From a virus: 23,592 bases of DNA. Of this stretch, positions 11,771-23,592 are shown piece after piece. Both the position numbers and the translations under genes were made by a program. Numbering within the stretch: the stretch's first letter is position 1; each line of letters begins with the position of its first letter. Below the pieces are notes generated by a model. It ran no database searches. It saw nothing but the letters and a program-made list of their open reading frames with translations, and was not told where the DNA came from. Location: IMG/VR virus record IMGVR_UViG_3300045999_011128, positions 1 through 23,592 of that record; one strand, given 5' to 3'.

Positions 11771-12532
11771 ATGATTGGACTGATATCTCTTTTGCAAGAA
11801 ATACAAGGTAAGCCAAAAGCAATTTTTATGGCTGGACCTGCTGGCTCGGGTAAGTCCTTTATTTTAAAAAAATTAGTTCCTTCTAATTTTAATGTTATAA
11901 ATGTAGATGATACCTATGAGGAATTACTTAAATCTTCAGGTATTGGGATGAAGTTAGCTCAAATGTCACCTGATGAATTAAAAAAGGCAGGTGAGTTAAT
12001 GGGTCAAGCAAGAAAAACAACAGATAGTAAATATCAAGATGCAACTAAAAATTTAAAAAATCTTGCTATTGATAGTGTAGGTGGTTCATCTAAAACCTTA
12101 CTTAAGAAAAAATCAGAATTAGAAAATTTAGGTTACGATACAATGATGGTAATGACTTATGTATCGCCTATAACGTCACTAGAGCGTAATAAACAGCGAG
12201 ACAGATCATTATTACCAGGTATTGTGATTCGTTCCTGGCGCGACGTAAATAAAAATATAGACGTATATAAACAAGCATTTGGAGATAGTTTTACAATAGT
12301 AGATTTAAATCCTGAAGATGCTAATAAAAGTTTTGATGAAGATTATATCTTTAAAACATACATCAAACCTTTAGGACAAGTAGGTAAAGAAAAAACTCCT
12401 GAAGAAAAAGCAAAATCTGAAAAAGAAGCCAAACAAATCAATTCAGATATAAAACAATTAATCTCAACTCAACCAGAGTTTGATACAATAGAACAAGCAC
12501 AAACAAAAATCACTAAATTTATAAACAAATGA
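11771..12532 (+). CDS. P-loop kinase-like protein, zeta-toxin-like, with cargo-type leader (253 aa)
   Basis: A Walker A loop, GPAGSGKS, occupies residues 22-29 after a strand (KAIFMA). VINVDD at 42-47 resembles the Asp pair that follows in zeta toxins and polynucleotide kinases. RNKQRDRSLLPGIVIRSW (139-156) resembles the Arg-rich lid of that group. The protein would therefore phosphorylate a small molecule, sugar nucleotide or nucleic-acid end. Residues 1-10 (MIGLISLLQE) precede the fold, are amphipathic and end in L-Q-E. The C-terminal 50 residues are Lys/Glu-rich helix. It starts behind promoter motif copy 2 and overlaps the next gene by ATGA. Kinase fold: fairly sure. Substrate and toxicity: unknown. 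Confidence 0.75.
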   Translation: MIGLISLLQEIQGKPKAIFMAGPAGSGKSFILKKLVPSNFNVINVDDTYEELLKSSGIGMKLAQMSPDELKKAGELMGQARKTTDSKYQDATKNLKNLAIDSVGGSSKTLLKKKSELENLGYDTMMVMTYVSPITSLERNKQRDRSLLPGIVIRSWRDVNKNIDVYKQAFGDSFTIVDLNPEDANKSFDEDYIFKTYIKPLGQVGKEKTPEEKAKSEKEAKQINSDIKQLISTQPEFDTIEQAQTKITKFINK

Positions 12533-12903
12533 AACTAGTAGACTTATTAAACGAAGTAGAAAAAAAAGAAAAACCAGTTAAGGAAGTAGCTCCTGTTCAA
12601 GAAGCTGAATCTACTGTAGTAGATGAAATTGGTAAATTCTTTGTAGTTAAAAAACCTGGTAAAGGTATGACTAAAGAAGATATGGTATATGAAGCTACTA
12701 TATTTGATGAAATTAAAATGGACGAAACTAAAGGTGCTTATAAAAATAGATCTGAGGCAAATCGTCATGCTACTGAAGCTTTAAAAGAATACGAAATGCA
12801 GCTTAAAGAAATGGAAGATGCTATGGAAGCTTTCCGTTCTGCTAAAAAAGATATTGAAGAAAAAAAAGCAACTGCTAAAGAAAAAATTCAAAAACTTAAA
12901 TAA
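12529..12903 (+). CDS. Coiled-coil hypothetical protein with cargo-type leader (124 aa)
   Basis: Begins MKLVDLLNEVEKKEK, an amphipathic leader with L-N-E at residues 7-9. Residues 30-70 contain a small predicted alpha/beta part (EIGKFFVVKKPGKGMTKEDM), and residues ~75-124 are a long charged helix (EALKEYEMQLKEMEDAMEAF, then Lys/Glu repeats) likely to form a coiled coil. It overlaps the gene before (ATGA) and the gene after (TAATG). No family is recognised. A core or scaffold-like internal head protein is one possibility given the highly charged helix. An antitoxin partner for the upstream kinase-like gene is less likely. Confidence 0.7.
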   Translation: MKLVDLLNEVEKKEKPVKEVAPVQEAESTVVDEIGKFFVVKKPGKGMTKEDMVYEATIFDEIKMDETKGAYKNRSEANRHATEALKEYEMQLKEMEDAMEAFRSAKKDIEEKKATAKEKIQKLK

Positions 12904-15674
12904 TGAACTCCCTTACCAAAGTCTTATTAGAAGATCTTTTGGAAGCGGAAAACAAAAAAATAACCGCTATTTATGGTGGTGGATTTAAACCACCTACCAA
13001 AGGACATTATGCTGTTGTCGAAAAAGCTGCTGAACAAGACCCTGAAATTGATGATATTATCATTTATGTGGGTGGGGGTGAGCGTGATGGTATTACTCAA
13101 GCTGAATCTATTCAAGTTTGGGAATTATATAAAAAATATCTTCCTTTAAAAGTAAGAATTGAACCATCAAAAGCACCTGTGGGTGATGTTTTACGTTATG
13201 CTAAAGAACATCCTGATGAGGAAGTACTTTGGATTATAGGTGCTCGTGAAAATAATCCTGAAGATTTTGCTGATATTGCTTCTAGAACTAGAACAATAGA
13301 TAAATACCCTAATCTTCAATTACGAGTTATTCAAACCTCAGGTGGTGTTAGTGGAACGGCAGCTCGTAAAGCTGTAAGAGATAATAACAAAGAACAATTT
13401 TTCCACTTAATCCCAGACATCGAGGAAAAAGAACAAGTATGGGATATTGTATCTCCTGTTATTAAAGAAGGTTTTGTAGATGATTTAAAATCTAAGTTTA
13501 ATAAATTTATATCTGCTGCTAAACAAGAGGGTAAAGAAACTAAAGAAGCATTATCCTTATTAATTAAATCAGCTAAAGGTGACATTGATTTAACAGATGA
13601 CCAGAAAAAAGAAATAGGTAATCAATTAAAAGATGTTTTAAAATTAGTAGGTTTAACAGCAATCGCTACTTTACCTGGTGGATTTATTGCGGCTGCCTTA
13701 ATTAAGTTATTTAAAGCAGAATATTTGATTACACCATCTTCAATGATGAATGAATATAATAACACAGGTCCTTCTACACCAAAAGTTTATATTGTAAAAG
13801 CAGATGGAAATTATAAAGAAGTACCTATAGAAATATTATCTAAAATCCCAAATCTAACATATGATATGGGTGGTGGTGAAACTAACTTTTTTCCTGAAAA
13901 AAATATTGTTATAGTAGACAATATTCCTATAAACCAATTTGCTCAAGAACCAGGTGAAATAAAAGATGAAAAAATATACGTTGAATATAATTTAAATCAG
14001 CCTTTTAGTTTTCCTAAAGCAAATAAAATTATAGCTTCTCAAATAGTATATCATTTAGGTGATATTAAATCTTTCGCTAAAACAATAAATGATTCACTTA
14101 AAAATGGAGGTACGTTTCAATTCTTTAGTGATTTAATGAATAAGCAAGATAAAGAATTTTTAAATTACTTATCTAGCGAATATAGATTTGGTTTACCTAA
14201 AAACTTAAATCCTTATAAAGGAGGAAATCTTTTATTAAAAAAAGGAGACTATACTGAACCTGTTATATCTTACATTTACAGTGTAACCGATGCTGAGGGA
14301 AATACAGCAAAAATATCTGTTACTAAAGAAGGTAGATGGTGGGAATATGCTAAAATTGAAGGTGATATAGATTTTAAACCTAGTAAATGGAGTGTTGAAC
14401 CTGAATATAAGTATAACAATATAATTCCAAGTAAGGAGAATGTTTTAGATTCTTTTTCTCAAGCTCTAAAAACTGATATTGTAGATTTTAAAAAATTAAA
14501 TGAAACTTTAGATGAAGGATCTTGTGGTTATGATACAGATGTAGCAACAGGTAAAAAATTAGATACACCTGGTGGATTAAAAGAAGCTGATTCTATAAAC
14601 GAAGGTCGTTATGATAGTATTTCAAGACAATTAGCTAAACTTACATTAAATTATTGGAAAGAAGGATTTGCCAAAGGTAAAAATGAAATAAATTACATTG
14701 ATAGAATTACCCCTGATGAATATCCGACAGATTTAGAATTTTTATACAATGGTGAGGTTATATTTACCTCAGCAGGAGATAAATATTCTCATAATGGTTA
14801 TGCTATGTCTAGAGGTGAGTCTAAAGATGGTACTCCTAGAGTAGGAGTTAATTATTTTGTTCCTAAAGATATGATTCCTCAAGGTTGGGAAGAAATTTAT
14901 ATGGATTTAATTACTACTCTTCGTCATGAAATTGAACATTTAACTCAATCAGGAGGTAATGTAAAACAAGGTAAAGAAATGGGTAGTGATATGAAACTAC
15001 GTAAACTTATTGGTACCAATAAAGATGTAGTAAGATACGTTTTATTACCCAAAGAAGTAGATGCTAATGTTCAAGGTTTATATTTAAAAGCTAAAAAATG
15101 GAGACGTCCTTATGTAGAAGTAGTAGATGAATGGATTAAAGATTTTTTAAAAATTAAAAAACAAAGTGATATTGATTTAATTAAAGGAATATACGATAAA
15201 AGAGCTAAAGAATTAAATTTACCTGCTATCCAAGAAAATGATCCTTTTGGTATTAAAGCATATGCTCGTGAATTAGTTAATGAAGCTTTAAAAGACACTT
15301 GGAATCCTAAAGAATCATTCGTATCTTTATCTAAGTTCATGATAGACAATGGAATGAATATCACCCCATTGCCTAAAATTAAGGTTATAAAGGATGATAA
15401 AGAAAACGCATCCAATCTTTTGGGTAAAACGGCTTACTATGATCCGAATAATAAATCAATTACTCTATTCACAATGGATAGACACCCAAAAGATATTTTG
15501 CGTTCATTTTCACATGAAATGGTTCATCATGAACAAAATTTAAATGGAAAACTAAATAATATTAATACAACCAATACAAACGAAGACGGAGATTTACCTG
15601 AAATCGAAAGAGAAGCATACGAAAAAGGAAATATAATGTTACGTAATTGGGAAGACACGATTAAAAATGTATAA
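12903..15674 (+). CDS. Multidomain protein: nucleotidyltransferase, hydrophobic helical module, two zinc metalloprotease domains (923 aa)
   Basis: Residues 1-16 are a leader (MNSLTKVLLEDLLEAE). Residues 20-175 form a cytidylyltransferase-like nucleotidyltransferase: GGGFKPPTKGH at 25-35 (the (H/T)xGH site) and VSGTAARKAV at 149-158 (the SxTxxR site). Residues 190-280 are helical with a hydrophobic stretch at 248-270 around TLPGG, loosely LETM1-like. Residues 294-445 look like a degenerate methyltransferase fold (YDMGGGE). Residues 568-770 carry HEIEH at 675-679 and 780-923 carry HEMVH at 871-875, two HExxH zinc sites, with Glu718 and Glu902/904 as possible third ligands. Tripeptides I-K-E 187-189, L-N-E 532-534, I-N-E 565-567 and I-Q-E 776-778 fall between modules. 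It is probably a processed polyprotein or a multi-enzyme internal protein. Confidence 0.8.
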   Translation: MNSLTKVLLEDLLEAENKKITAIYGGGFKPPTKGHYAVVEKAAEQDPEIDDIIIYVGGGERDGITQAESIQVWELYKKYLPLKVRIEPSKAPVGDVLRYAKEHPDEEVLWIIGARENNPEDFADIASRTRTIDKYPNLQLRVIQTSGGVSGTAARKAVRDNNKEQFFHLIPDIEEKEQVWDIVSPVIKEGFVDDLKSKFNKFISAAKQEGKETKEALSLLIKSAKGDIDLTDDQKKEIGNQLKDVLKLVGLTAIATLPGGFIAAALIKLFKAEYLITPSSMMNEYNNTGPSTPKVYIVKADGNYKEVPIEILSKIPNLTYDMGGGETNFFPEKNIVIVDNIPINQFAQEPGEIKDEKIYVEYNLNQPFSFPKANKIIASQIVYHLGDIKSFAKTINDSLKNGGTFQFFSDLMNKQDKEFLNYLSSEYRFGLPKNLNPYKGGNLLLKKGDYTEPVISYIYSVTDAEGNTAKISVTKEGRWWEYAKIEGDIDFKPSKWSVEPEYKYNNIIPSKENVLDSFSQALKTDIVDFKKLNETLDEGSCGYDTDVATGKKLDTPGGLKEADSINEGRYDSISRQLAKLTLNYWKEGFAKGKNEINYIDRITPDEYPTDLEFLYNGEVIFTSAGDKYSHNGYAMSRGESKDGTPRVGVNYFVPKDMIPQGWEEIYMDLITTLRHEIEHLTQSGGNVKQGKEMGSDMKLRKLIGTNKDVVRYVLLPKEVDANVQGLYLKAKKWRRPYVEVVDEWIKDFLKIKKQSDIDLIKGIYDKRAKELNLPAIQENDPFGIKAYARELVNEALKDTWNPKESFVSLSKFMIDNGMNITPLPKIKVIKDDKENASNLLGKTAYYDPNNKSITLFTMDRHPKDILRSFSHEMVHHEQNLNGKLNNINTTNTNEDGDLPEIEREAYEKGNIMLRNWEDTIKNV

Positions 15675-16212
15675 GCTAACAGATTTATATAAACAAATTA
15701 AAGAAGAAGCTAATGCGACTACCCCACAATATAAAATTTATTGTGATATGGATGGTGTATTAGTAGACTTTGATAAAGGTTATAAAGCATTAACTGGTAA
15801 AGAAACAAGTCATGTTGATGTTCAAGGTAAAAACGAGTTTTGGAGCACTTTTAAACAAGGTCTTGAAAATAAAAAAATGAGTGAAAAGGATTATTGGGCA
15901 AACTTAGAATGGATGCCTGATGGTAAAGAGCTTTGGGACCATATTAAACAGTACAAACCAACTTTACTTTCAGCCCCTTCAAGAGATCCACAATCTCGTT
16001 GGGGTAAACGTATTTGGGTAAAGAAAAATATCCCCGGTACACCTTTAATTCTTGCAGCAGCTCCAATGAAAAAGAATTATGCTAAAAAGAATGCAATACT
16101 TATAGACGATAAGATTTCTAATATCAACGAGTGGAATGAAGCTGGTGGTATTGGAATTCTTCATACTTCAACATCAACAACATTAGATAAATTAAGCAAA
16201 TATGGCATTTAG
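15667..16212 (+). CDS. HAD-family 5'-nucleotidase-like protein with cargo-type leader (181 aa)
   Basis: HAD motif I is YCDMDGVLVDFD, with nucleophile Asp27 and acid/base Asp29. Motif II is the Ser of TLLSAPS (Ser102), motif III a Lys in PMKKNYAKK (135-140), and motif IV Asp147-Asp148 in AILIDDKISN. The layout fits the 5'(3')-deoxyribonucleotidase (NT5C-like) branch common in phages, which dephosphorylates nucleoside monophosphates. Length is typical. Residues 1-15 (MYKLTDLYKQIKEEA) lie outside the catalytic fold and contain I-K-E at 11-13, like its neighbours. The start overlaps the previous gene by 8 bases and its end overlaps the next by 11. All catalytic residues are present. Confidence 0.85.
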   Translation: MYKLTDLYKQIKEEANATTPQYKIYCDMDGVLVDFDKGYKALTGKETSHVDVQGKNEFWSTFKQGLENKKMSEKDYWANLEWMPDGKELWDHIKQYKPTLLSAPSRDPQSRWGKRIWVKKNIPGTPLILAAAPMKKNYAKKNAILIDDKISNINEWNEAGGIGILHTSTSTTLDKLSKYGI

Positions 16213-16615
16213 AAGAGTAGTAATTAGTGGAGAAAAAGTACAAGATACAAAAACAGATCTTGATGGATTTTTTTCAAACAAAGTATTTAAAACCAACTAC
16301 CCAGGTCTTAAAACAAAAATGATAATTTCACCTGTTAAAACAGATACAATTGTAGTTGATATTAATGGTGATGGTGCTGATACTGTAGCTAAAAAAGTTA
16401 AAGATATTGGGATTAAATATAAAATGAAAGCAGTAATCAAAATGGAAAAACCAATGTCTGCTGTTAAAGAAAATAATAAAGAAAAAAATGATGAATTAGT
16501 AAATAAAATTAAATCATCATTGTTATTTCAATTAAGTGGAGGTAAACAAGGTGAACCAATGTCTAAAGGACAAAATTTACCTGCTAACACATTTATCAAA
16601 AAATCAGATAAATAA
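16202..16615 (+). CDS. Small alpha/beta hypothetical protein (137 aa)
   Basis: The ATG at 16202 lies inside the last codons of the nucleotidase gene (11-base overlap, different frame). Residues 1-80 alternate short strands and helices (RRVVISGEKV, KMIISPVKTDTIVVDI, GADTVAKKVKDIGIKYKMKAV), suggesting a ferredoxin-like beta-alpha-beta unit. Residues 88-110 form a Lys/Glu-rich helix, and the last 25 residues are Gly/Lys/Gln-rich and probably disordered. Unlike its neighbours it has no amphipathic leader. No family is recognised. Coupled to the next gene by TAATG. Confidence 0.7.
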   Translation: MAFRRVVISGEKVQDTKTDLDGFFSNKVFKTNYPGLKTKMIISPVKTDTIVVDINGDGADTVAKKVKDIGIKYKMKAVIKMEKPMSAVKENNKEKNDELVNKIKSSLLFQLSGGKQGEPMSKGQNLPANTFIKKSDK

Positions 16616-17187
16616 TGAAAAACGATTCGGTTTTAAAAAAAGAGTTCAAACAAAATGATGTACAACGTCTTCGTAACCTTGTTCAAGGTAAATACGGTGA
16701 TCGTACAACTATGGGAACTGGTTATCAAAAAACAAAAGAATTTCACGATGAAGGAGATATTTGGGAAGAAGATAGTCGAACATGGACTATTAAAAATGGT
16801 GTAAAACAAAATATTACTAAATTAGATAAGGCAAAAGAAGGTATTGTTTTACCTTTGTTTTGCCCTTCTTGTTCTCGTACAATGAAACCTCATCTTGACA
16901 AAAGATGGTTTGTTATGTATGGACACTGTTTTGATTGCCAAGTTACATTTGAAGCTGAATTAAAAAAACAAGGTAAACTTCAAGAATTTGAAGATCAAGT
17001 AGTTAATGCTAATATTGAAGGTGTTACTAAAGATCTTGAAGTTTGGTTCGATGAATTAATAAACGAAAAACAAACTTTTATTACTGAAGCTGGTGATGTT
17101 GAAAAGTGGGATGGTTCTGGTAAACAACAATTATTAAAATATAAACAAGAAGCATTAGATTACTTACAAAACAAAAAAAGAAGATGA
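16615..17187 (+). CDS. Zinc-ribbon phage protein (190 aa)
   Basis: Residues 14-75 form a conserved-looking block (NDVQRLRNLVQGKYGDRT, then GDIWEEDSRTWTIKNGVKQN) that I remember from marine T4-like phages. A zinc ribbon follows: Cys83-x2-Cys86 (FCPSCSRTM) and Cys105-x2-Cys108 (HCFDCQV). Residues 112-150 are helical, with the C-terminus Lys-rich (LQNKKRR). This could bind DNA or act as a packaging or assembly accessory. Function is unknown in what I can recall of the family. It is coupled on both sides (TAATG before, ATGATG after). Confidence 0.75.
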   Translation: MKNDSVLKKEFKQNDVQRLRNLVQGKYGDRTTMGTGYQKTKEFHDEGDIWEEDSRTWTIKNGVKQNITKLDKAKEGIVLPLFCPSCSRTMKPHLDKRWFVMYGHCFDCQVTFEAELKKQGKLQEFEDQVVNANIEGVTKDLEVWFDELINEKQTFITEAGDVEKWDGSGKQQLLKYKQEALDYLQNKKRR

Positions 17188-17810
17188 TGGAATTTACAAT
17201 GTTTACTACTATTATCGTTGCTCTAATTACAGCAGTGATAGGACCAGCAGTATTAGAATGGGTAAGAGCCAAATTAAAGAAAAAAGAAGTTGAGGATAAA
17301 AAATCTCCTGTAAAAGAAGCTATTGATATTAATGAAATAATTGATCATCAATTAGAACAAATTATGGAAGAACTTAACTGTGATCGTATTTGGTTAGCTC
17401 AATTTCACAATGGAGGTCATTTTTACCCAACAGGAAAATCCATTCAAAAATTTTCTATTTTTTATGAAAAAATGAATCCTGATATTCAAGCAGTACAACA
17501 TGTTTTTCAAAATATTCCTGTTTCTTTATTTCCAAAAGCATTATCTAAATTATATAAAGATGGAGAGTTAGGCATTGTTAGTTACAATACTGATGAAAAT
17601 TATGACTTGATGATGTTTCAAAAACAATATGGATGTAAATCTTTTTATATGTTGGCCTTAGATGATTTAGATGATCATTTTATAGGTGTATTAGGAATCG
17701 CATTTACTGAACAAGAACACAAATTATCCAGAGAAGAATGGATATTTATAAGACAGAAAGTGGGTGCTATTGGTTCCCTTTTAACAGACTACTTATACAA
17801 TAAGAAATGA
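17184..17810 (+). CDS. Membrane-anchored GAF-like domain protein (208 aa)
   Basis: Residues ~7-24 (FTTIIVALITAVIGPAVL) are a single N-terminal membrane segment followed by a Lys/Arg-rich stretch (28-40), so the bulk should stay in the cytoplasm. Residues ~50-205 resemble a GAF sensor fold: CDRIWLAQFHNGG, the following YPTGKSIQKFS, and FYMLALDDLDDHFIGVLGI as the central strands, ending in a helix. There is no kinase, cyclase or nuclease domain attached, so it would act by binding a ligand or a partner at the membrane. It overlaps the next gene by ATGA. The GAF resemblance is by pattern and should be tested by profile search. Confidence 0.7.
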   Translation: MMEFTMFTTIIVALITAVIGPAVLEWVRAKLKKKEVEDKKSPVKEAIDINEIIDHQLEQIMEELNCDRIWLAQFHNGGHFYPTGKSIQKFSIFYEKMNPDIQAVQHVFQNIPVSLFPKALSKLYKDGELGIVSYNTDENYDLMMFQKQYGCKSFYMLALDDLDDHFIGVLGIAFTEQEHKLSREEWIFIRQKVGAIGSLLTDYLYNKK

Positions 17811-20020
17811 AAGATATTCAAAAAATTAAAGAATTTTTCTCTAAACCTTTAGAAGAAGTTAAAACAGATAAATACGGTAATCATATTGAACCTCAATTTA
17901 AAAAAGGTGATAAAGTAACCTATTTAGGACACCCAGCAGAAATTACAGCTATCAATAAAGAAATGGACGGTACCTATAGCTATAGTGTATTCTACGATAA
18001 AGGTCAGGGTAAAACTAAAGCAAGTAATCTTAAAAATAAAGGTGGTGAGATTAAATTAACTGAAGCATCTAATGTTTTTAATTTAGAAACAGCAGTTGCG
18101 GAACTTATGAAAGCTTATCATCTTAATAAAGAAAAAGCTTTAAAAATTATAAATACAACTCCTCAAATAGAAAAAATTATTAATCTTGGTTACGCTACAT
18201 CAGCCCCAGAAGCTTTAGGTAAGGTTCATGGTGGTGCAGCTCGTACTTTTAATTATTTAGGTAGTCTTGATAAAATAAACGAAGAATATACAGTTGCTGG
18301 TCATTCTGTGACGTTAAACAAAGGTACAAAATCAGATGGAACTGATTGGACTGTAACTTTTAAAAACGGAAAATTAAAACCATTATCTGATGTTTTAGCT
18401 TTAATTAAACCAATGCCTAAAGGTATTACAATGAACGAAGTTAAAGAAGAAACAGGGGTTGACATGGTCAAAAAGAGATTAGATGCTTTAGGTGTTAAAT
18501 ACGAAATGTCAAAAACTGATAAAGTAAGACCATTTAAAGTAATTTACAAACCAGTTAACAAATCAGATAAATTTTATGATGAATTTGAAGATATTGTTGA
18601 TTTATTTAACTTAAAAGGTTTTGTAAAACAATCAATGAGTGAAGCAAAATTAATTTCTGACTATAAAATAGGTGATATTATTTCATTTAAAGATGGTGAG
18701 GATTGGAAAGTAATAAAGGTAAAAGATAACATAGGTAAACTTGTTATTAAACCTCACAATGAAAAAGCTAAAGAAGGAAACGTTAGTTTAGAAATTGACA
18801 TTGATGCTGATTATCTTAAAAAAAATCTATTAGAAGTAAAATCAGAAGATAAAGTAGATACTATAACAATGGATATTCCTTTATTCCTTCGTATGTTAGA
18901 ATACTCAAGAGAAGATGCTTCTCAAGACATGGATTTACATGACGTTACCGAAAAAGCAAATAAATTAGGTAAAGAAAGAGGTATCTTATCTATGGAAGAT
19001 TATGAGGAAATTGTAGGTGCTGCTGAAAAAATAAACGAATACAACCCAGACCAAGAACAATTAGACGATGAAGATGAAATCTTTGTGTCTTATGATGATG
19101 AAGGTAGACCTTTAGAAGAAGCAAATGTTCCTTCAAATATTAGAGATTTTGCTAAAAGAAAAGGTATATCTTCTTTAGTTAATAAAGTAGCAGGTTGGGC
19201 TGAAAAAGTAGGTGCTCGAATTGCTGGTGGAACAGCTATTGGTAAAAATTATAGTACGCTTGTTTTAGATTTAGATTATAAACAACAAGGTGAAATTCGC
19301 ATTGATACAGATGAAGAAACAATTGAATTATACGATGAACCAGTTTATGATTTTAAATCATTCCAACGTGTTTATATTGATGGAGCTGATAATAATTTAG
19401 AAGAAGGTGAAGAAGAACAATTATCATTCATCAGTAAAGCTCGTGCCAAATCATCTCTAAGACAATTCCTTTCAGGTAAACGTGATGATGGGATGGGTAA
19501 ATTTGATGCAATAGTATATGGTATAGATTCAGATGGTAAAAAACACCAAATTAAATATTATAATCATTTACAAGATTACGAAAAATTTGCATTAGGTGAT
19601 AACCCAGATATAAAAGAAGCTAAAAACACATCCTTAGATTCTGAAACCATCAAACAAATTAAAGATGATATTAAGGGATTTCCAAAATATCAAAAACGAG
19701 GATATGAATCTTTCAAAAAAGAAGTACGTGAAAAATATAATATAACTCCAAAACAATTAGAGGATATTTTACATGGAGATTTAAAAGAAAATGTTGCTCC
19801 TAATCACGATGGAAAAGCAGCTCCTTATGGTTCAGGATATAAACCATTAGAAGAAAGAATTGCCAAAGCATTAGATCAAATTAACGAAGAACTTTGCCCT
19901 GCAGGTAAAGCATATAGAAAACGTAGAATGGAAGCTGGTGAAAAATCATCTGCTTATCTTTCAGGTCGTGCTGTTAAAGTATGTAAAGGACAAATGTCTG
20001 GTAAAAAGAAAAAGAAATGA
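17807..20020 (+). CDS. Multimodule protein with (I/L)-x-E junctions and basic Cys-containing tail (737 aa)
   Basis: Starts MKDIQKIKEFFSKPLEEV, an amphipathic leader with I-K-E at 7-9 and L-E-E at 15-17. Residues ~30-80 are an SH3/KOW-like small barrel (KKGDKVTYLGHPAEI). Similar barrel-like sequence recurs at ~284-345 (YKIGDIISFKDGEDWKVIKV). Other modules: 160-205, 215-280, a helical acidic part 350-430, 440-600, and 605-660. Candidate cut sites are L-T-E 84-86, I-N-E 157-159, I-N-E 409-411, L-E-E 436-438, I-K-E 602-604, L-K-E 659-661 and I-N-E 692-694. The last site releases a ~43-residue tail that is strongly basic, with two cysteines (ELCPAGKAYRKRR, KVCKGQM, terminal Lys run), a likely DNA-binding peptide. 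No enzyme motif was found. Confidence 0.75.
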   Translation: MKDIQKIKEFFSKPLEEVKTDKYGNHIEPQFKKGDKVTYLGHPAEITAINKEMDGTYSYSVFYDKGQGKTKASNLKNKGGEIKLTEASNVFNLETAVAELMKAYHLNKEKALKIINTTPQIEKIINLGYATSAPEALGKVHGGAARTFNYLGSLDKINEEYTVAGHSVTLNKGTKSDGTDWTVTFKNGKLKPLSDVLALIKPMPKGITMNEVKEETGVDMVKKRLDALGVKYEMSKTDKVRPFKVIYKPVNKSDKFYDEFEDIVDLFNLKGFVKQSMSEAKLISDYKIGDIISFKDGEDWKVIKVKDNIGKLVIKPHNEKAKEGNVSLEIDIDADYLKKNLLEVKSEDKVDTITMDIPLFLRMLEYSREDASQDMDLHDVTEKANKLGKERGILSMEDYEEIVGAAEKINEYNPDQEQLDDEDEIFVSYDDEGRPLEEANVPSNIRDFAKRKGISSLVNKVAGWAEKVGARIAGGTAIGKNYSTLVLDLDYKQQGEIRIDTDEETIELYDEPVYDFKSFQRVYIDGADNNLEEGEEEQLSFISKARAKSSLRQFLSGKRDDGMGKFDAIVYGIDSDGKKHQIKYYNHLQDYEKFALGDNPDIKEAKNTSLDSETIKQIKDDIKGFPKYQKRGYESFKKEVREKYNITPKQLEDILHGDLKENVAPNHDGKAAPYGSGYKPLEERIAKALDQINEELCPAGKAYRKRRMEAGEKSSAYLSGRAVKVCKGQMSGKKKKK

Positions 20021-20310
20021 TTACACGAGAGCGACTACAAGAAATAATATCTGAATCATTACGTGACTGGTTTAAAAAAGAAGACTGGGTACGTATTGAT
20101 ACTCAAGGTAATATTACTGGTCCTTGTGGGACAATGAAAAAAGGTGGAGCTACAACAAGATGTTTACCTCGTAAAAAAGCTCAATCACTATCTAAAGCCG
20201 AACGTGCTAAAACATCACGTAAAAAAGCATCTGCTTCTCGTAAAGGAAAACAATTTGTAAAAAATACAGAAAAAGCAGAATACAAAAAAGGCACATATCA
20301 TAAAAAATAA
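20017..20310 (+). CDS. Highly basic small protein, likely DNA-binding, with leader (97 aa)
   Basis: Residues 1-13 (MITRERLQEIISE) form a leader with L-Q-E at 7-9 and I-S-E at 11-13. Residues 22-55 hold a conserved-looking block (DWVRIDTQGNITGPCG, then TTRCLPRKKAQSLSKAER) that I recall as a small domain of unknown function in T4-like phages. The remaining 40 residues are Lys/Arg/Ser/Ala-rich with no acidic cluster. If the leader is removed, the product is a small, very basic peptide suited to neutralising packaged DNA. Coupled to the previous gene by ATGA and followed by a 26-base gap with promoter motif copy 3. Confidence 0.75.
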   Translation: MITRERLQEIISESLRDWFKKEDWVRIDTQGNITGPCGTMKKGGATTRCLPRKKAQSLSKAERAKTSRKKASASRKGKQFVKNTEKAEYKKGTYHKK

Positions 20311-20311
20311 C

Positions 20312-20327
20312 ATATTTATAACATATA
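20312..20327 (+). promoter_or_regulatory. Candidate phage late promoter, motif copy 3
   Basis: ATATTTATAACATATA, identical over 16 bases to the copy at 5616-5631 and followed by C one or two bases later in both places. It ends nine bases before the ATG at 20337 and fills most of the only gap between the long coupled gene chain and the acidic core-like gene. Confidence 0.5.
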
Positions 20328-20336
20328 CTCAATAAA

Positions 20337-21950
20337 ATGGCAAAATTCGACTTAAAAAAAGCTATACTAAAAAATAAAGCTACATTTTTTGGTTCATTGA
20401 CTGAAGGTCAATTTTCTTGGTTTACCCAAGATACAGACCAACAAATTGGTTCTGAAGATGAAAATACTCTTCCTTTTGTTTACATGCACGATAATAAAGG
20501 TAACAAATGGTTAGAAAAAAATTATGAAGGATATGGTGTGTTTGGTGGTAAAGATTACTACGAATTATTAGACCAAATGAATGGTGGAGATGGTGATAGA
20601 AGTAGAGGTATTGATTTAGCTTTTAATGATGAAGCCGTTGCTGCTGGTAAAGTATTATTCCCAGCACTAACTGTTAGTGCAACATTACCTTCATATCACA
20701 GTTTTAATGAAGAACCAAAAAATGATCCAAACCAATCTTGGTATACTCCTGAAGAGGATGAAGAAAATGATTATGATTCTTATTTTGGAGATATGGATAG
20801 AGAAGAAGATTATGATTATGATGAAGAAGAATTAGATGAAGCAGAACTTCCTGCTTTAGCTGCTGATCAAGTTGAAAACATTGCTCAACAATTAGCAGAT
20901 AAATTTTCAGAAACAGATGATTTAGACATTAAATTCTCAATCACCCCAGGTTCAATTGAAGCTTCTCCTAAAGGAGCAGGATTTGATCTTGATACAATGG
21001 CTGGACCAAACACTCCTGGTGGAGATTGGAAAGATGAAAATGGCTTTGATATCGATAACTACTTGGGTAAATATGCAGGTGGTTCTTATTACATTAAACC
21101 CGAAGGAGGTAAACATAAGATTTATAACGCCGCCGCACAAAATGCTTATATTGGACACGTTACTCCTCAAGGTGAGGTAGTATTTGAAATTCCTGGTTTC
21201 GAAGGAACTATGGATCAATTAAACTCTCTTGAAGAAGAAAAACCAAAAACAAAAATGAAAAAATCCGAATTAAAAGAACTTATCAAGTCATCTATTATGA
21301 ATGAAATGTATGTTGATATTGATAATATGGAAGATGCTCCTGAATCAGAAGTTGATTTCTTAGCCGAAGTTGATGCTATTTTAGCTGAAGCAGATGAATT
21401 TGAAACAGCAAAACCAGCTCGTATTACTTCATTTCTTAAAGCACTTGATCTTCTTGTGTATGATGAATACCACGCAGAATTATACGATTCTGATGAAGTT
21501 AAACAAGCATATGATCTTTTAGTAAAAGCTGCTAAAAAATTAGGAAATTTAAATGAAGCTGATGAAGAAGTAGCAGTAGACGATACTGAAGTAGCCGTTG
21601 ATGGTGAAGAAAATATTGATGTTGATACAACAACAGAAGTAGATCCTAATGTAAAAGCAGTACAAGATGCTTTAACACAAGCCCAAGCAGCTGCTCAAAA
21701 ATTAGGTGATCCTAAATTAACAGATCAAATTGGTAATACAATTACATTCTTTACTCGTGCACACGTAGTTGATAAAGGTGCTGTTGCTGAAGCTGATGAA
21801 ATGGAAGAAGGTAAAAAAGAGTATTACAAAGATGCTGAAGCCGATGATGCTGAACATATCAACGCCTTAGAAAAAGATATGAAAGATGATAAAGATTCAT
21901 CTATGAAAATCAAAGAAGTTGTTTTCCCAATGTGGCAACGAATTAAATAA
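20337..21950 (+). CDS. Acidic multidomain protein, possible prohead core/cargo (537 aa)
   Basis: Residues 1-23 (MAKFDLKKAILKNKATFFGS then LTE) form a basic amphipathic leader. Residues 24-120 are a domain with NKWLEKNYEGYGVFGGKDYY and RGIDLAFND, which I remember from marine phages. Residues 138-175 are an acidic run of Asp/Glu/Tyr. Residues 180-290 are a mixed domain. Residues 307-323 repeat a leader-like helix inside the protein (MKKSELKELIKSSIMNE). Residues 355-405 are helical, 405-435 acidic, 438-480 helical (QDALTQAQAAAQKLG, then GNTITFFTRAHVV). There is no catalytic motif. Overall charge is strongly acidic, as in core/scaffold proteins, but no family match can be claimed. It follows promoter motif copy 3. 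Confidence 0.75.
   Translation: MAKFDLKKAILKNKATFFGSLTEGQFSWFTQDTDQQIGSEDENTLPFVYMHDNKGNKWLEKNYEGYGVFGGKDYYELLDQMNGGDGDRSRGIDLAFNDEAVAAGKVLFPALTVSATLPSYHSFNEEPKNDPNQSWYTPEEDEENDYDSYFGDMDREEDYDYDEEELDEAELPALAADQVENIAQQLADKFSETDDLDIKFSITPGSIEASPKGAGFDLDTMAGPNTPGGDWKDENGFDIDNYLGKYAGGSYYIKPEGGKHKIYNAAAQNAYIGHVTPQGEVVFEIPGFEGTMDQLNSLEEEKPKTKMKKSELKELIKSSIMNEMYVDIDNMEDAPESEVDFLAEVDAILAEADEFETAKPARITSFLKALDLLVYDEYHAELYDSDEVKQAYDLLVKAAKKLGNLNEADEEVAVDDTEVAVDGEENIDVDTTTEVDPNVKAVQDALTQAQAAAQKLGDPKLTDQIGNTITFFTRAHVVDKGAVAEADEMEEGKKEYYKDAEADDAEHINALEKDMKDDKDSSMKIKEVVFPMWQRIK
21255..21311 (+). other. Internal leader-like segment with its own ATG
   Basis: Codons 307-325 of the acidic 537-residue protein encode MKKSELKELIKSSIMNEMY. 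Its first six residues, MKKSEL, are the same as the N-terminus of the gene at 23225, and the helix resembles residues 62-77 of the gene at 22128 (NKNRIKELVRKSLMHE). This looks like a fused start of a formerly separate gene, or an internal translation start. Confidence 0.4.
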
Positions 21951-21956
21951 ATAATC

Positions 21957-21964
21957 TATAAATA
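21957..21964 (+). promoter_or_regulatory. TATAAATA, candidate T4-type late promoter
   Basis: An exact match to the T4 late -10 consensus TATAAATA in the 23-base gap before the histone-like gene, ending nine bases upstream of its ATG at 21974. An 8-base A/T word is easily found by chance in this sequence. Its position in one of the few gaps is the main support. Confidence 0.4.
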
Positions 21965-21973
21965 ATAAAAACT

Positions 21974-22144
21974 ATGAACACTCAAGAAATTTTTGAAAAA
22001 ATTGAAGCACTTTACGAATCATTTAAAGCAGAACATGCTGGAAAATCAAAAGCTGCTCATGGTCGCGCTCGTAAAGCATTAGGTGAAATCAAGAAATTGG
22101 TTACCGAATACAGAAAAGCGTCAATTGATGAAGATAAAAAGTAA
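21974..22144 (+). CDS. Histone H1-like (Hc1-type) small protein (56 aa)
   Basis: A short gene translating as MNTQEIFEKIEALYESFKAE, then HAGKSKAAHGRARKALGEIK, then KLVTEYRKASIDEDKK. The helix-turn-helix-like layout, the central Gly/Ser/Lys/Ala segment ending in ARKALGEIKKL, and the size match the Hc1 family of histone H1-like proteins, which is common in Bacteroidota and Chlamydiae and also found in some phages. Its role would be DNA binding and compaction, in the packaged head or on host DNA. It sits 23 bases after the acidic core-like gene, behind a TATAAATA element, and its 3' end overlaps the next gene's start by 17 bases. Family call: fairly confident by pattern. Confidence 0.8.
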   Translation: MNTQEIFEKIEALYESFKAEHAGKSKAAHGRARKALGEIKKLVTEYRKASIDEDKK

Positions 22145-23225
22145 TATAACTGAAAAAAAGCTTACCAAAGCTGAATTAGAGGCAAGAGAAAAAGTAATTA
22201 AGGACTTGAAAAAAAACAAGTCCGCTCTTGTTAAACGCTACGGCAAAGATGCTGAAGCCGTTATGTACGGACGTGCAACAAACATAGCTAAAAAAATGGC
22301 AGAATCAGAAAATAAAAACCGCATCAAAGAGCTTGTTAGAAAATCTCTTATGCATGAAGCCGATATTGAAGTCGATGCTGATAAATACGAAGGTGAAAAA
22401 GAACTAGGTCAAGTATCTATGATGATGGATGAACTAGAATCTCTTTTAAAAGGATTTGATTGGTATTATTACATGTCAGATGACCCTCGAGTTTATCGCA
22501 GTGGTTCAGCATATGATGATAAAGTATCTAGTCTTGTTAAACAATTAACAGATTTAGGATATGGAGATGATGCTAAAAAATTATACAATCAATATGCTCC
22601 AAGTGGTGATATTGATATGAGAATGAAAGAAGGTAAAAAAGAAGATGTTGATAGAGACGGAGATATCGATTCTAAAGATTACTTAGCTAAACGTGATGCT
22701 GCTATTAAAAAAGCAAAAGGTGACGTTAAAGAAGATATTGACTTAGGTCATGAAGATAACGAACCTCATATGATTAAAGGCGAATTATACCGTATTGGAA
22801 AATACGCTATGGAATTATACGCTATGTTAGAAGAATTTGAGGAAACGGGTGGTGAAGTTGATTTCCCAGCTTGGTGGCAATCTAAAATTACTATAGCCAT
22901 GAACAACATGGTTTCAGCTAAACATTATTTAGATTTTGAAACTAAAGAACCAGCTATTGATGCTGCTGTAGATGCTTTAACAGGTGAAGAACCTCATGAA
23001 GGTGAACCTGAACCTCCAATGATGGAAGGTGAAGTAACTAAAGTAGATAAATTAGCCGCTAAAATTGCTAAAGCTTTAAAAAACCCAAAAAACAACTCAG
23101 TTGAAGATCAAAATAATATCAAACAAGCTAGAAAAGCTATGAATGATGATAAAATTGAAACTGCTGAAAAAATTATTAAACCTTATTTAGCAGAAAAAAT
23201 AGCTAAACAGTTAAAGTCTAAATAA
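22128..23225 (+). CDS. Multidomain protein with EF-hand-like loop (365 aa)
   Basis: I choose the ATG at 22128 (MKIKSNITEKKL). A GTG at 22083 opens the same frame 15 codons earlier but lies wholly within the histone-like gene. Residues 11-58 are a Lys/Glu-rich helical domain (LTKAELEAREKVIKDLKKNK, then KRYGKDAEAVMYGRATNIAK), a motif I recall from many T4-like phages. Residues 62-77 are leader-like. Residues 92-160 form a helical domain, and 173-184 a DxDxDG calcium-binding loop (DVDRDGDIDSKD). Residues 203-283 hold DLGHEDNEPHMIKGELYRI, then DFPAWWQSKITIAM. Residues 302-365 are a Lys-rich helical tail. No catalytic residues were found. It is probably another processed internal head or core protein; this rests on context. 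Confidence 0.7.
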   Translation: MKIKSNITEKKLTKAELEAREKVIKDLKKNKSALVKRYGKDAEAVMYGRATNIAKKMAESENKNRIKELVRKSLMHEADIEVDADKYEGEKELGQVSMMMDELESLLKGFDWYYYMSDDPRVYRSGSAYDDKVSSLVKQLTDLGYGDDAKKLYNQYAPSGDIDMRMKEGKKEDVDRDGDIDSKDYLAKRDAAIKKAKGDVKEDIDLGHEDNEPHMIKGELYRIGKYAMELYAMLEEFEETGGEVDFPAWWQSKITIAMNNMVSAKHYLDFETKEPAIDAAVDALTGEEPHEGEPEPPMMEGEVTKVDKLAAKIAKALKNPKNNSVEDQNNIKQARKAMNDDKIETAEKIIKPYLAEKIAKQLKSK

Positions 23226-23592
23226 TGAAAAAAAGCGAATTAAGAGATAAAATCAAAATGCTTGTACAAAAAACGTACAAAGCTAAGACCATCGATTTAG
23301 ATAAAGGTGGAGAGGTTACTCTTGACGCTGAAAAATTTCCTGTTTTAACAAAATTTCCTAAATTAAAAGATGTCATAGTAGATCTATTAACAGATCAATA
23401 TGAGATTTTTATGAAAGCTATAGAATGGGTTGCTCCTCGTCCAACAACATTTAGAATTGTACTTGGTAATGATGAAAACTTTATGTTGATTTATACTGAA
23501 AGAAGTTGGATTGCTCAAGTTGAAGGTAAAAAATATTATCTATTAAACTTAGGTGAAGAGGAAATGGCAGCTGAATCTATTGCTAGATTCCC
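23225..23592 (+). CDS. Hypothetical phage protein, 3'-truncated by window edge
   Basis: The ATG at 23225 overlaps the previous stop (TAATG) and the frame stays open to the last base, giving at least 122 residues. It opens with MKKSELRDKIKMLVQKTYKA, a leader-like helix sharing MKKSEL with the internal segment at 21255. It continues with KFPVLTKFPKLKDVIVDLL, then WVAPRPTTFRIVLGND and KKYYLLNLGEEE, a small alpha/beta domain I recall from marine phages without a known function. The C-terminus is missing, so the domain order is incomplete. Confidence 0.75.
   Translation, partial: MKKSELRDKIKMLVQKTYKAKTIDLDKGGEVTLDAEKFPVLTKFPKLKDVIVDLLTDQYEIFMKAIEWVAPRPTTFRIVLGNDENFMLIYTERSWIAQVEGKKYYLLNLGEEEMAAESIARF

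Follow-up and report, generated by a model that had tools for sequence, protein, structure and literature searches.

The virus fragment analysed here (IMG/VR record IMGVR_UViG_3300045999_011128, 23,592 bases, hereafter the window) contains, from position 11771 onwards, a block of genes for unrelated proteins, many of which begin with a short leader that runs up to an (I/L)-x-E tripeptide. According to our analysis, this block likely codes for proteins that a T4-superfamily phage packs into its head, provided with interchangeable N-terminal tags of which one mimics the tail of the scaffold protein. A first-pass annotation had proposed protease-processed proteins that are packed into the capsid and share a leader. 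Capsid targeting and processing are well supported from sequence, a single shared leader is not: the leader-bearing N-termini are real and fall into at least four exchangeable kinds. These are short T4-like leaders, FDLKKFLVENKLT, KKSELRxxIRE and RMQKLAGI, and their targeting role appears to be interchangeable. The leaders and leader-like elements of the window are the following:

11771-11800, plus strand: leader MIGLISLLQE, cut predicted after E10, of a zeta-toxin/polynucleotide-kinase-like P-loop protein (11771-12532).
12529-12555, plus strand: leader MKLVDLLNE, cut predicted after E9, of a 124-residue protein (12529-12903).
12903-12944, plus strand: leader MNSLTKVLLEDLLE, sites E10 and E14, of a 923-residue protein.
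15667-15705, plus strand: leader MYKLTDLYKQIKE, cut predicted after E13, of an NT5C-type 5' nucleotidase.
17807-17857, plus strand: leader MKDIQKIKEFFSKPLEE, sites E9 and E17, of a long protein with no assigned function.
20017-20055, plus strand: leader MITRERLQEIISE, sites E9 and E13, of a small basic protein.
20337-20405, plus strand: class A leader MAKFDLKKAILKNKATFFGSLTE, cut predicted after E23.
22128-22154, plus strand: leader MKIKSNITE, cut predicted after E9.
22311-22358, plus strand: internal class B-like module KNRIKELVRKSLMHE, residues 62-77 of the 22128 product.
23225-23590, plus strand: gene with a class B-like, leader-like start helix MKKSELRDKIKMLVQ and no early (I/L)xE, cut by the contig end.

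Leader sequences are exchanged between orthologues, yet the joint with the core stays in place. In the family of gene 22128, 15 distinct leaders of 5-30 residues (for example MKIKSNITE, MLNE and MNKKDLQNAIREFLSKDGNSPITE) have an (I/L)xE that ends 1-2 residues ahead of the LTKAEL core in 15/15 cases. The 20337 family has 12 distinct leaders, including the divergent MTDFNYKKYLTENKLTQTTKLRAGILAE, and 12/12 have an [IL]xE immediately ahead of the GQFSW core; KATFFGSLTE and TQTTKLRAGILAE are two that each end right at GQFSW. The family of a gene at 44251 in contig G001, a relative of the window, bears the leader FDLRKFITE in one phage and LRLQKLAGIISE in another, with cores that are 85% identical. 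Conservation of the leaders in orthologues was found in this form: the sites are kept and the leader sequence is functionally replaced, with the joint position fixed.

One leader class matches the end of the scaffold protein. IMG/VR was scanned with a DNA pattern encoding (R)MQKLAG(I/L), without any restriction on position. Of 124 protein occurrences among the matches listed, 92 form the very C-terminus, 30 lie close to the start methionine and 2 are internal. In Flavobacterium phage vB_FspM_immuto_2-6A (Immutovirus), the closest cultured relative of the window, in Microcystis phage Mel-JY01 and in close relatives, the C-terminal carrier is a scaffold candidate encoded between the protease and the capsid protein, and nearly all relatives of this candidate have a C-terminal R(M/W)Q.LAGI. 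The 28 N-terminal RMQKLAG leaders analysed, again among the matches listed, precede 24 core families with no mutual similarity, and in 28/28 the E of [ILVM]xE stands 3-6 residues past KLAG (at +4 in 21). Of 83 distinct scaffold tails, 73 have an [ILV]xE ahead of the motif, against 24 expected, and in 60 of those 73 the E stands exactly six residues before R. The site follows the motif in cargo and precedes it in the scaffold, so that in both it separates tail from body. RMQKLAG copies within one genome show synonymous codon differences, which would be expected of a peptide that selection preserves and not of one copied recently. The RMQKLAGI leaders probably act as mimics of the scaffold tail, which suggests that cargo of this class may dock where the scaffold docks. 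MQKLAGI was not reported in the literature searched, which comprised open-access papers only. In Mel-JY01 (PP395634; listed host Microcystis), the scaffold candidate ends in RMKKLAGIVK and the capsid protein is 54% identical to that of Immutovirus.

Some leaders share the spacing of the T4 propeptides. The first 10 residues of T4 internal protein (IP) III are enough for packaging, with residues 4 and 7 serving targeting and 8 and 10 processing (PMC9026906). We read the N-termini of IPIII (MKTYQEFIAE) and of T4 gp24 (MAKINELLRE) and used a pattern of hydrophobic residues at 4 and 7, I/L at 8 and E at 10. The exact pattern occurs in 12/87 block proteins and in 3/503 others (shuffles 0.2 and 0.5), and the outside hits at 134371 and 134757 of G010, in the two tightest test versions, are block genes just past the coordinate limit. 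With a free register it is found in 16/48 block families and 14/356 elsewhere. Seven altered patterns gave no significant enrichment in the block; controls with K, Q, D or S/T in place of E were not enriched. Since the pattern had been picked after the window leaders were known, it was re-tested on four previously unused genomes, where genes up to 20 kb from the protease were compared with the remainder (odds ratio 5.7, p 5e-8). In the window, two leaders match in the exact register (11771 and 12903) and two in a shifted one (12529 and 20017), and 15667, 17807, 20337 and 22128 have the E site without the 4/7/8/10 spacing.

Reading of the translations confirmed all eight early tripeptides of the window that had been put forward, namely LQE at residues 8-10 (11771), LNE at 7-9 (12529), LLE at 8-10 (12903), IKE at 11-13 (15667), IKE at 7-9 (17807), LQE at 7-9 (20017), LTE at 21-23 (20337) and ITE at 7-9 (22128, where the ATG at 22128 yields MKIKSNITEKK). 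The accompanying caution was justified as well. Taking all proteins of such phages, roughly 30% contain an early (I/L)-x-E, for which reason we rejected it as sole proof of cargo, and it is also present in the GIY-YIG (E16) and exonuclease (E15) proteins, inside the domain in the former and not conserved in Immutovirus in the latter. Across four relatives, [IL]xE with E at residue 25 or earlier was counted in 51/83 proteins of the interval between exonuclease and TerL versus 132/438 elsewhere, with about 30 expected from shuffled N-termini of the same interval proteins; [IL]xK, [IL]xQ and [VFMAY]xE showed no excess over shuffles in this interval. As the genomes are related, the count was redone per protein family with Immutovirus added, which gave 30/48 block families versus 111/356 others (p 3e-5). 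Per family, the predicted amphipathic nature of the N-termini was also recovered, with a hydrophobic moment over residues 2-12 of 0.368 in the block against 0.281 (p 3e-4). The proposed clustering stands as an enrichment in the block, not as an unbroken chain: some block genes are leaderless (in the window 16202, 16615, 17184 and 21974) and leader genes also occur far away, as in G001. The leaderless 56-residue protein at 21974-22144 matches histone H1-like Hc1 (PF07432, 40.7 bits) and is strongly conserved among relatives; the (I/L)xE near its start is part of the domain.

The position of the block links it to the head genes. The first part of the window encodes large proteins that are located in the tail region in relatives, followed by a SegE-type GIY-YIG nuclease, a primase, a PD-(D/E)XK exonuclease and the leader block. 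Immutovirus has the same order, with a SegE-like gene, primase, exonuclease, NMNAT-like protein, NT5C nucleotidase and genes of no known function, after which come TerL, a gp20-type portal, the prohead protease, the scaffold candidate and a gp23-type capsid protein. In G001 (149.8 kb), which is a closer relative than Immutovirus, block and head genes are contiguous on one contig; together with the same order in Immutovirus, this places the block directly before the head genes. It lies directly 5' of the genes for TerL, portal, protease, scaffold and major capsid protein in G001, G003, G008, G009 and Immutovirus. The T4-superfamily head module, with gp23-like major capsid protein, gp20-like portal and S77 protease in synteny, is present in the Immutovirus annotation, the Immutovirus major capsid protein matches T4-type ones, and G001 shows the same head-gene order. 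The host of the block phages probably belongs to the Bacteroidota.

A search for a gp21-type prohead protease, as the first-pass annotation had suggested, found Peptidase_S77 in relatives, including G001 and Immutovirus (gp070). The family cut-off was exceeded in 7 of the first 13 relatives, comprising every one above 60 kb, in 9/14 contigs picked by the RMQKLAG pattern alone (5/5 of those of at least 99 kb) and in 13/13 contigs with the scaffold family. G007 (268,739 bp) has two S77 prohead protease genes (31291-31773 and 233494-233940), and in G046, G047, G049 and G064 the S77 match lies within open frames of 576-660 residues, perhaps a fusion with another head protein. Neither of the two refuting findings that were looked for, absence of the protease and lack of leader conservation, was observed among the relatives.

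The same kind of leader is found on an enzyme encoded at a distance from the block. In G001, a 2H-phosphoesterase-like gene (108583-109146) with two HxT motifs follows the leader MKNNPFKRLQELAGIITE, and in G030 the same core (143528-144079) stands behind MIKLKDLLTE. Against Pfam Acb1 (PF23474) the G001 gene scores 25.4 bits (E 1.3e-5), under the cut-off of 27, and the G030 gene 20.2 bits; we label the family Acb1-like only, in keeping with these weak matches. Its 80 IMG/VR relatives carry 45 distinct leaders of at least 9 residues, among them the T4-like MKHIKLFEEFVTE and MIKSFTQFVNE and also RMQKLAGLITE, MADDFNLKEYLNNNPLLQE and MKYKIKEELRRGLLE, and a strict (I/L)xE is found 2-6 residues ahead of the core in 32/45 (5.9 expected). 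Every leader class seen in this analysis occurs in the family, so one enzyme bears T4-like tags in some phages and other classes elsewhere. This suggests a virion-borne anti-CBASS-like enzyme (CBASS, cyclic oligonucleotide-based antiphage signalling system).

Among the window proteins, 11771 has a Zeta_toxin match (PF06414, 37 bits, over the cut-off) and Foldseek hits to zeta and polynucleotide kinase proteins; M1, I2, L4, L8 and E10 are invariant in its 19 orthologues. For 15667, all 21 aligned orthologues keep E13, even that of Immutovirus with its otherwise different leader, and the phrog_2643 match begins at residue 20. That the leaders lie outside the fold holds for these two proteins, where it was checked with AlphaFold models: predicted local distance difference test (pLDDT) values below 50 occur solely at residues 1-11 of 11771, and in 15667 they are about 52 over residues 1-20 and above 90 from residue 21. 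Orthologues of 12529 carry MKLTDLLNE, MKTLLDLLNE and MKKLLDLLRE, those of 20017 carry MDINRLQELVSE and similar leaders, and those of 12903 carry other leaders (MIDSILEILFEED, MSEVTESLIKELLEE) ahead of the same AIYGGGF core. The 12903 product consists of a nucleotidyltransferase-like domain and a middle region without assigned function, with two HExxH motifs; its domain matches are weak and below cut-off (CTP_transf_like E 0.018, Peptidase_M91 E 0.0057), and it matches the cytidyltransferase phrog_3041 with E 1.7e-4. In 17807 orthologues the leader is unchanged and the sequence behind it variable. A polyprotein nature of 17807 and 20337 was considered and rejected, as internal (I/L)xE and (I/L)xE[ASG] sites are about as frequent as shuffled sequences would give. 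Internal class B-like modules occur in the 22128 product (KELVRKSLMHE, 22311-22358), where K67, E68, L69, V70, L74 and E77 are invariant in 17 orthologues, and in the 20337 product (KSELKELIKSSIMNE, residues ~311-326). The small Immutovirus protein gp093 (103366-103806) and its counterparts in G030 and G031 begin with MISIYNILKE; the GEGDYGAVFLVG stretch behind it resembles a kinase on visual inspection, and there was no Pfam match. In Immutovirus, cuts are predicted after the leader glutamates of gp003, gp076, gp077, gp083, gp087, gp092 and gp093, after IVSE in the major capsid protein and at IISE in the scaffold tail.

Several observations weigh against a head-cargo role. The window itself carries no prohead protease or head gene, and internal (I/L)xE sites of long products are not in excess over chance. 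In the Acb1-like family, 12 loci have no leader, S77 was found in 9/24 contigs, and Gp23 exceeded its cut-off in 0 of the 11 S77-negative contigs searched; the alternative protease S78 (PF04586) had no match in the 24 records of this family. These S77-negative contigs may either be fragments or have a head of a different type. Long contigs with leader genes and no S77 match include G048, G050, G052, G053 and G054. Immutovirus shows no enrichment of the exact T4 register, which was therefore rejected as a universal mark (a freer register is enriched there, 9/21 vs 6/180), and Immutovirus gp088, the NMNAT-like protein, and the adjoining gp089 have no clear leader. TerL and one baseplate-operon gene have leader-like N-termini too. 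The latter has a class B-like amphipathic N-terminus in G001 (15682), Immutovirus (81525) and G003 (64132) and is likely an exception to the head-cargo role. A literature search found no virion proteomics report for Immutovirus or Mel-JY01.

From the leaders, their exchange, the joint position, the scaffold-tail identity and the protease genes of relatives, all read in sequence, we infer binding, cleavage, packaging and injection. Each cargo protein would begin with a short disordered or helical leader outside its fold, which would bind the assembling prohead core or shell. The S77 prohead protease would then cut after (I/L)-x-E at the joint of leader and core, and the released enzyme would remain beside the DNA inside the head; at least some of the cargo would reach the host together with the genome, as the T4 IPs and Alt suggest by analogy. 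With the cut site ahead of the tail in the scaffold and behind it in cargo, either cut would liberate the body. Window cargo would include the zeta-toxin/polynucleotide-kinase-like kinase, the NT5C nucleotidase, the nucleotidyltransferase-like protein (on its weak matches) and small basic proteins.

In an unlikely alternative, the leaders would be helices with which core proteins assemble or bind the scaffold; these proteins would serve head assembly and be cut and mostly discarded, like T4 gp67, gp68 and gp22, with no delivery to the host. The block does adjoin the head genes, the 12529, 20337 and 22128 products have no recognisable enzyme domain, and T4 gp24, a shell protein, bears a propeptide of the same kind. 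However, zeta-like kinase, NT5C nucleotidase and Acb1-like phosphoesterase cores are implausible as scaffold, and leaders on many unrelated and variable cores are what cargo would show rather than core components. We give considerably less credence to amphipathic helices that localise the proteins to another partner (membrane, replication complex or phage compartment), with E a matter of helix composition and not a protease site. In the per-family count [IL]xxE is likewise enriched in the block, so part of the tripeptide signal reflects acidic amphipathic helix composition, and the helices on TerL and the baseplate-operon gene, like the several leader-bearing contigs without detected S77, would fit as well. 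Such helices would not account for a leader class identical to the scaffold C-terminus, for an (I/L)xE that is fixed at the joint while leader sequence and length vary, for E replacement controls that are not enriched, or for the constant spacing of the site on the body side of the scaffold tail. Chance occurrence of a common tripeptide in K/E-rich N-termini of an AT-rich phage, for which its background frequency would speak, is highly improbable in view of the shuffle and motif controls, the family-level counts, the four validation genomes and the 15/15 joint conservation.

Capsid-targeting propeptides and gp21-type processing as such are already known from T4 and giant phages. As in T4, where gp21 (Peptidase_S77) cuts IPI-III and Alt, unrelated mature proteins follow a short N-terminal propeptide ending in (I/L)-x-E, the S77 protease accompanies T4-superfamily head genes, and some leaders share the 4/7/8/10 spacing of IPIII and gp24. 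CTS-like (capsid-targeting sequence-like) sequences have already been noted on other T4-related proteins (PMC9026906). Unlike in T4, several unrelated leaders are interchangeable here, one being the C-terminal tail of the scaffold protein, and many leader genes with recognisable enzymes as cargo form one block beside the head genes. The ejection proteins of phiKZ/SPN3US-type giant phages are similar in that a gp21-related protease processes many internal head proteins, and two diverged SPN3US paralogues have an identical N-terminus (PMC5694885). Several of the giant-phage propeptides exceed 100 residues, however, and SPN3US cuts after A-x-E, whereas the leaders described here have about 5-30 residues and (I/L)-x-E sites. 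Engineered P22 capsids are loaded through fusion of cargo to the scaffold protein, whose coat-binding part brings the cargo in and from which it can be detached at a protease site (PMC9962691). The cargo proposed here would enter and be separated in a like manner, but the P22 constructs are laboratory-made, while here the tag would have arisen in nature, would sit at the N-terminus and would be removed by the protease of the phage itself. Neither leader classes that replace one another nor a scaffold tail used as a leader turned up in our search of open-access literature.

The evidence is evenly poised on a broader proposal, in which a large and mostly uncultured T4-superfamily group would use interchangeable packing tags, one of them borrowed from the C-terminal tail of its own scaffold and joined to a protease site on the other side. 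Scaffold and cargo would dock alike and be freed by the same cut, and the tag would single out pre-made kinases, nucleotidases and Acb1-like phosphoesterases, as enzymes of host takeover and counter-defence, to be delivered along with the DNA. If head cargo is the correct explanation of the block, head-carried proteins could be predicted from sequence across this large uncultured group, which at present needs proteomics of purified virions. Head-packing tags would be modular and replaceable, and one of them would be explained by imitation of the scaffold tail. The leaders would also offer natural packing tags to try for protein loading of T4-type heads. For the phages themselves, such cargo would suggest that some counter-defence enzymes arrive ready-made and act from the onset of infection.

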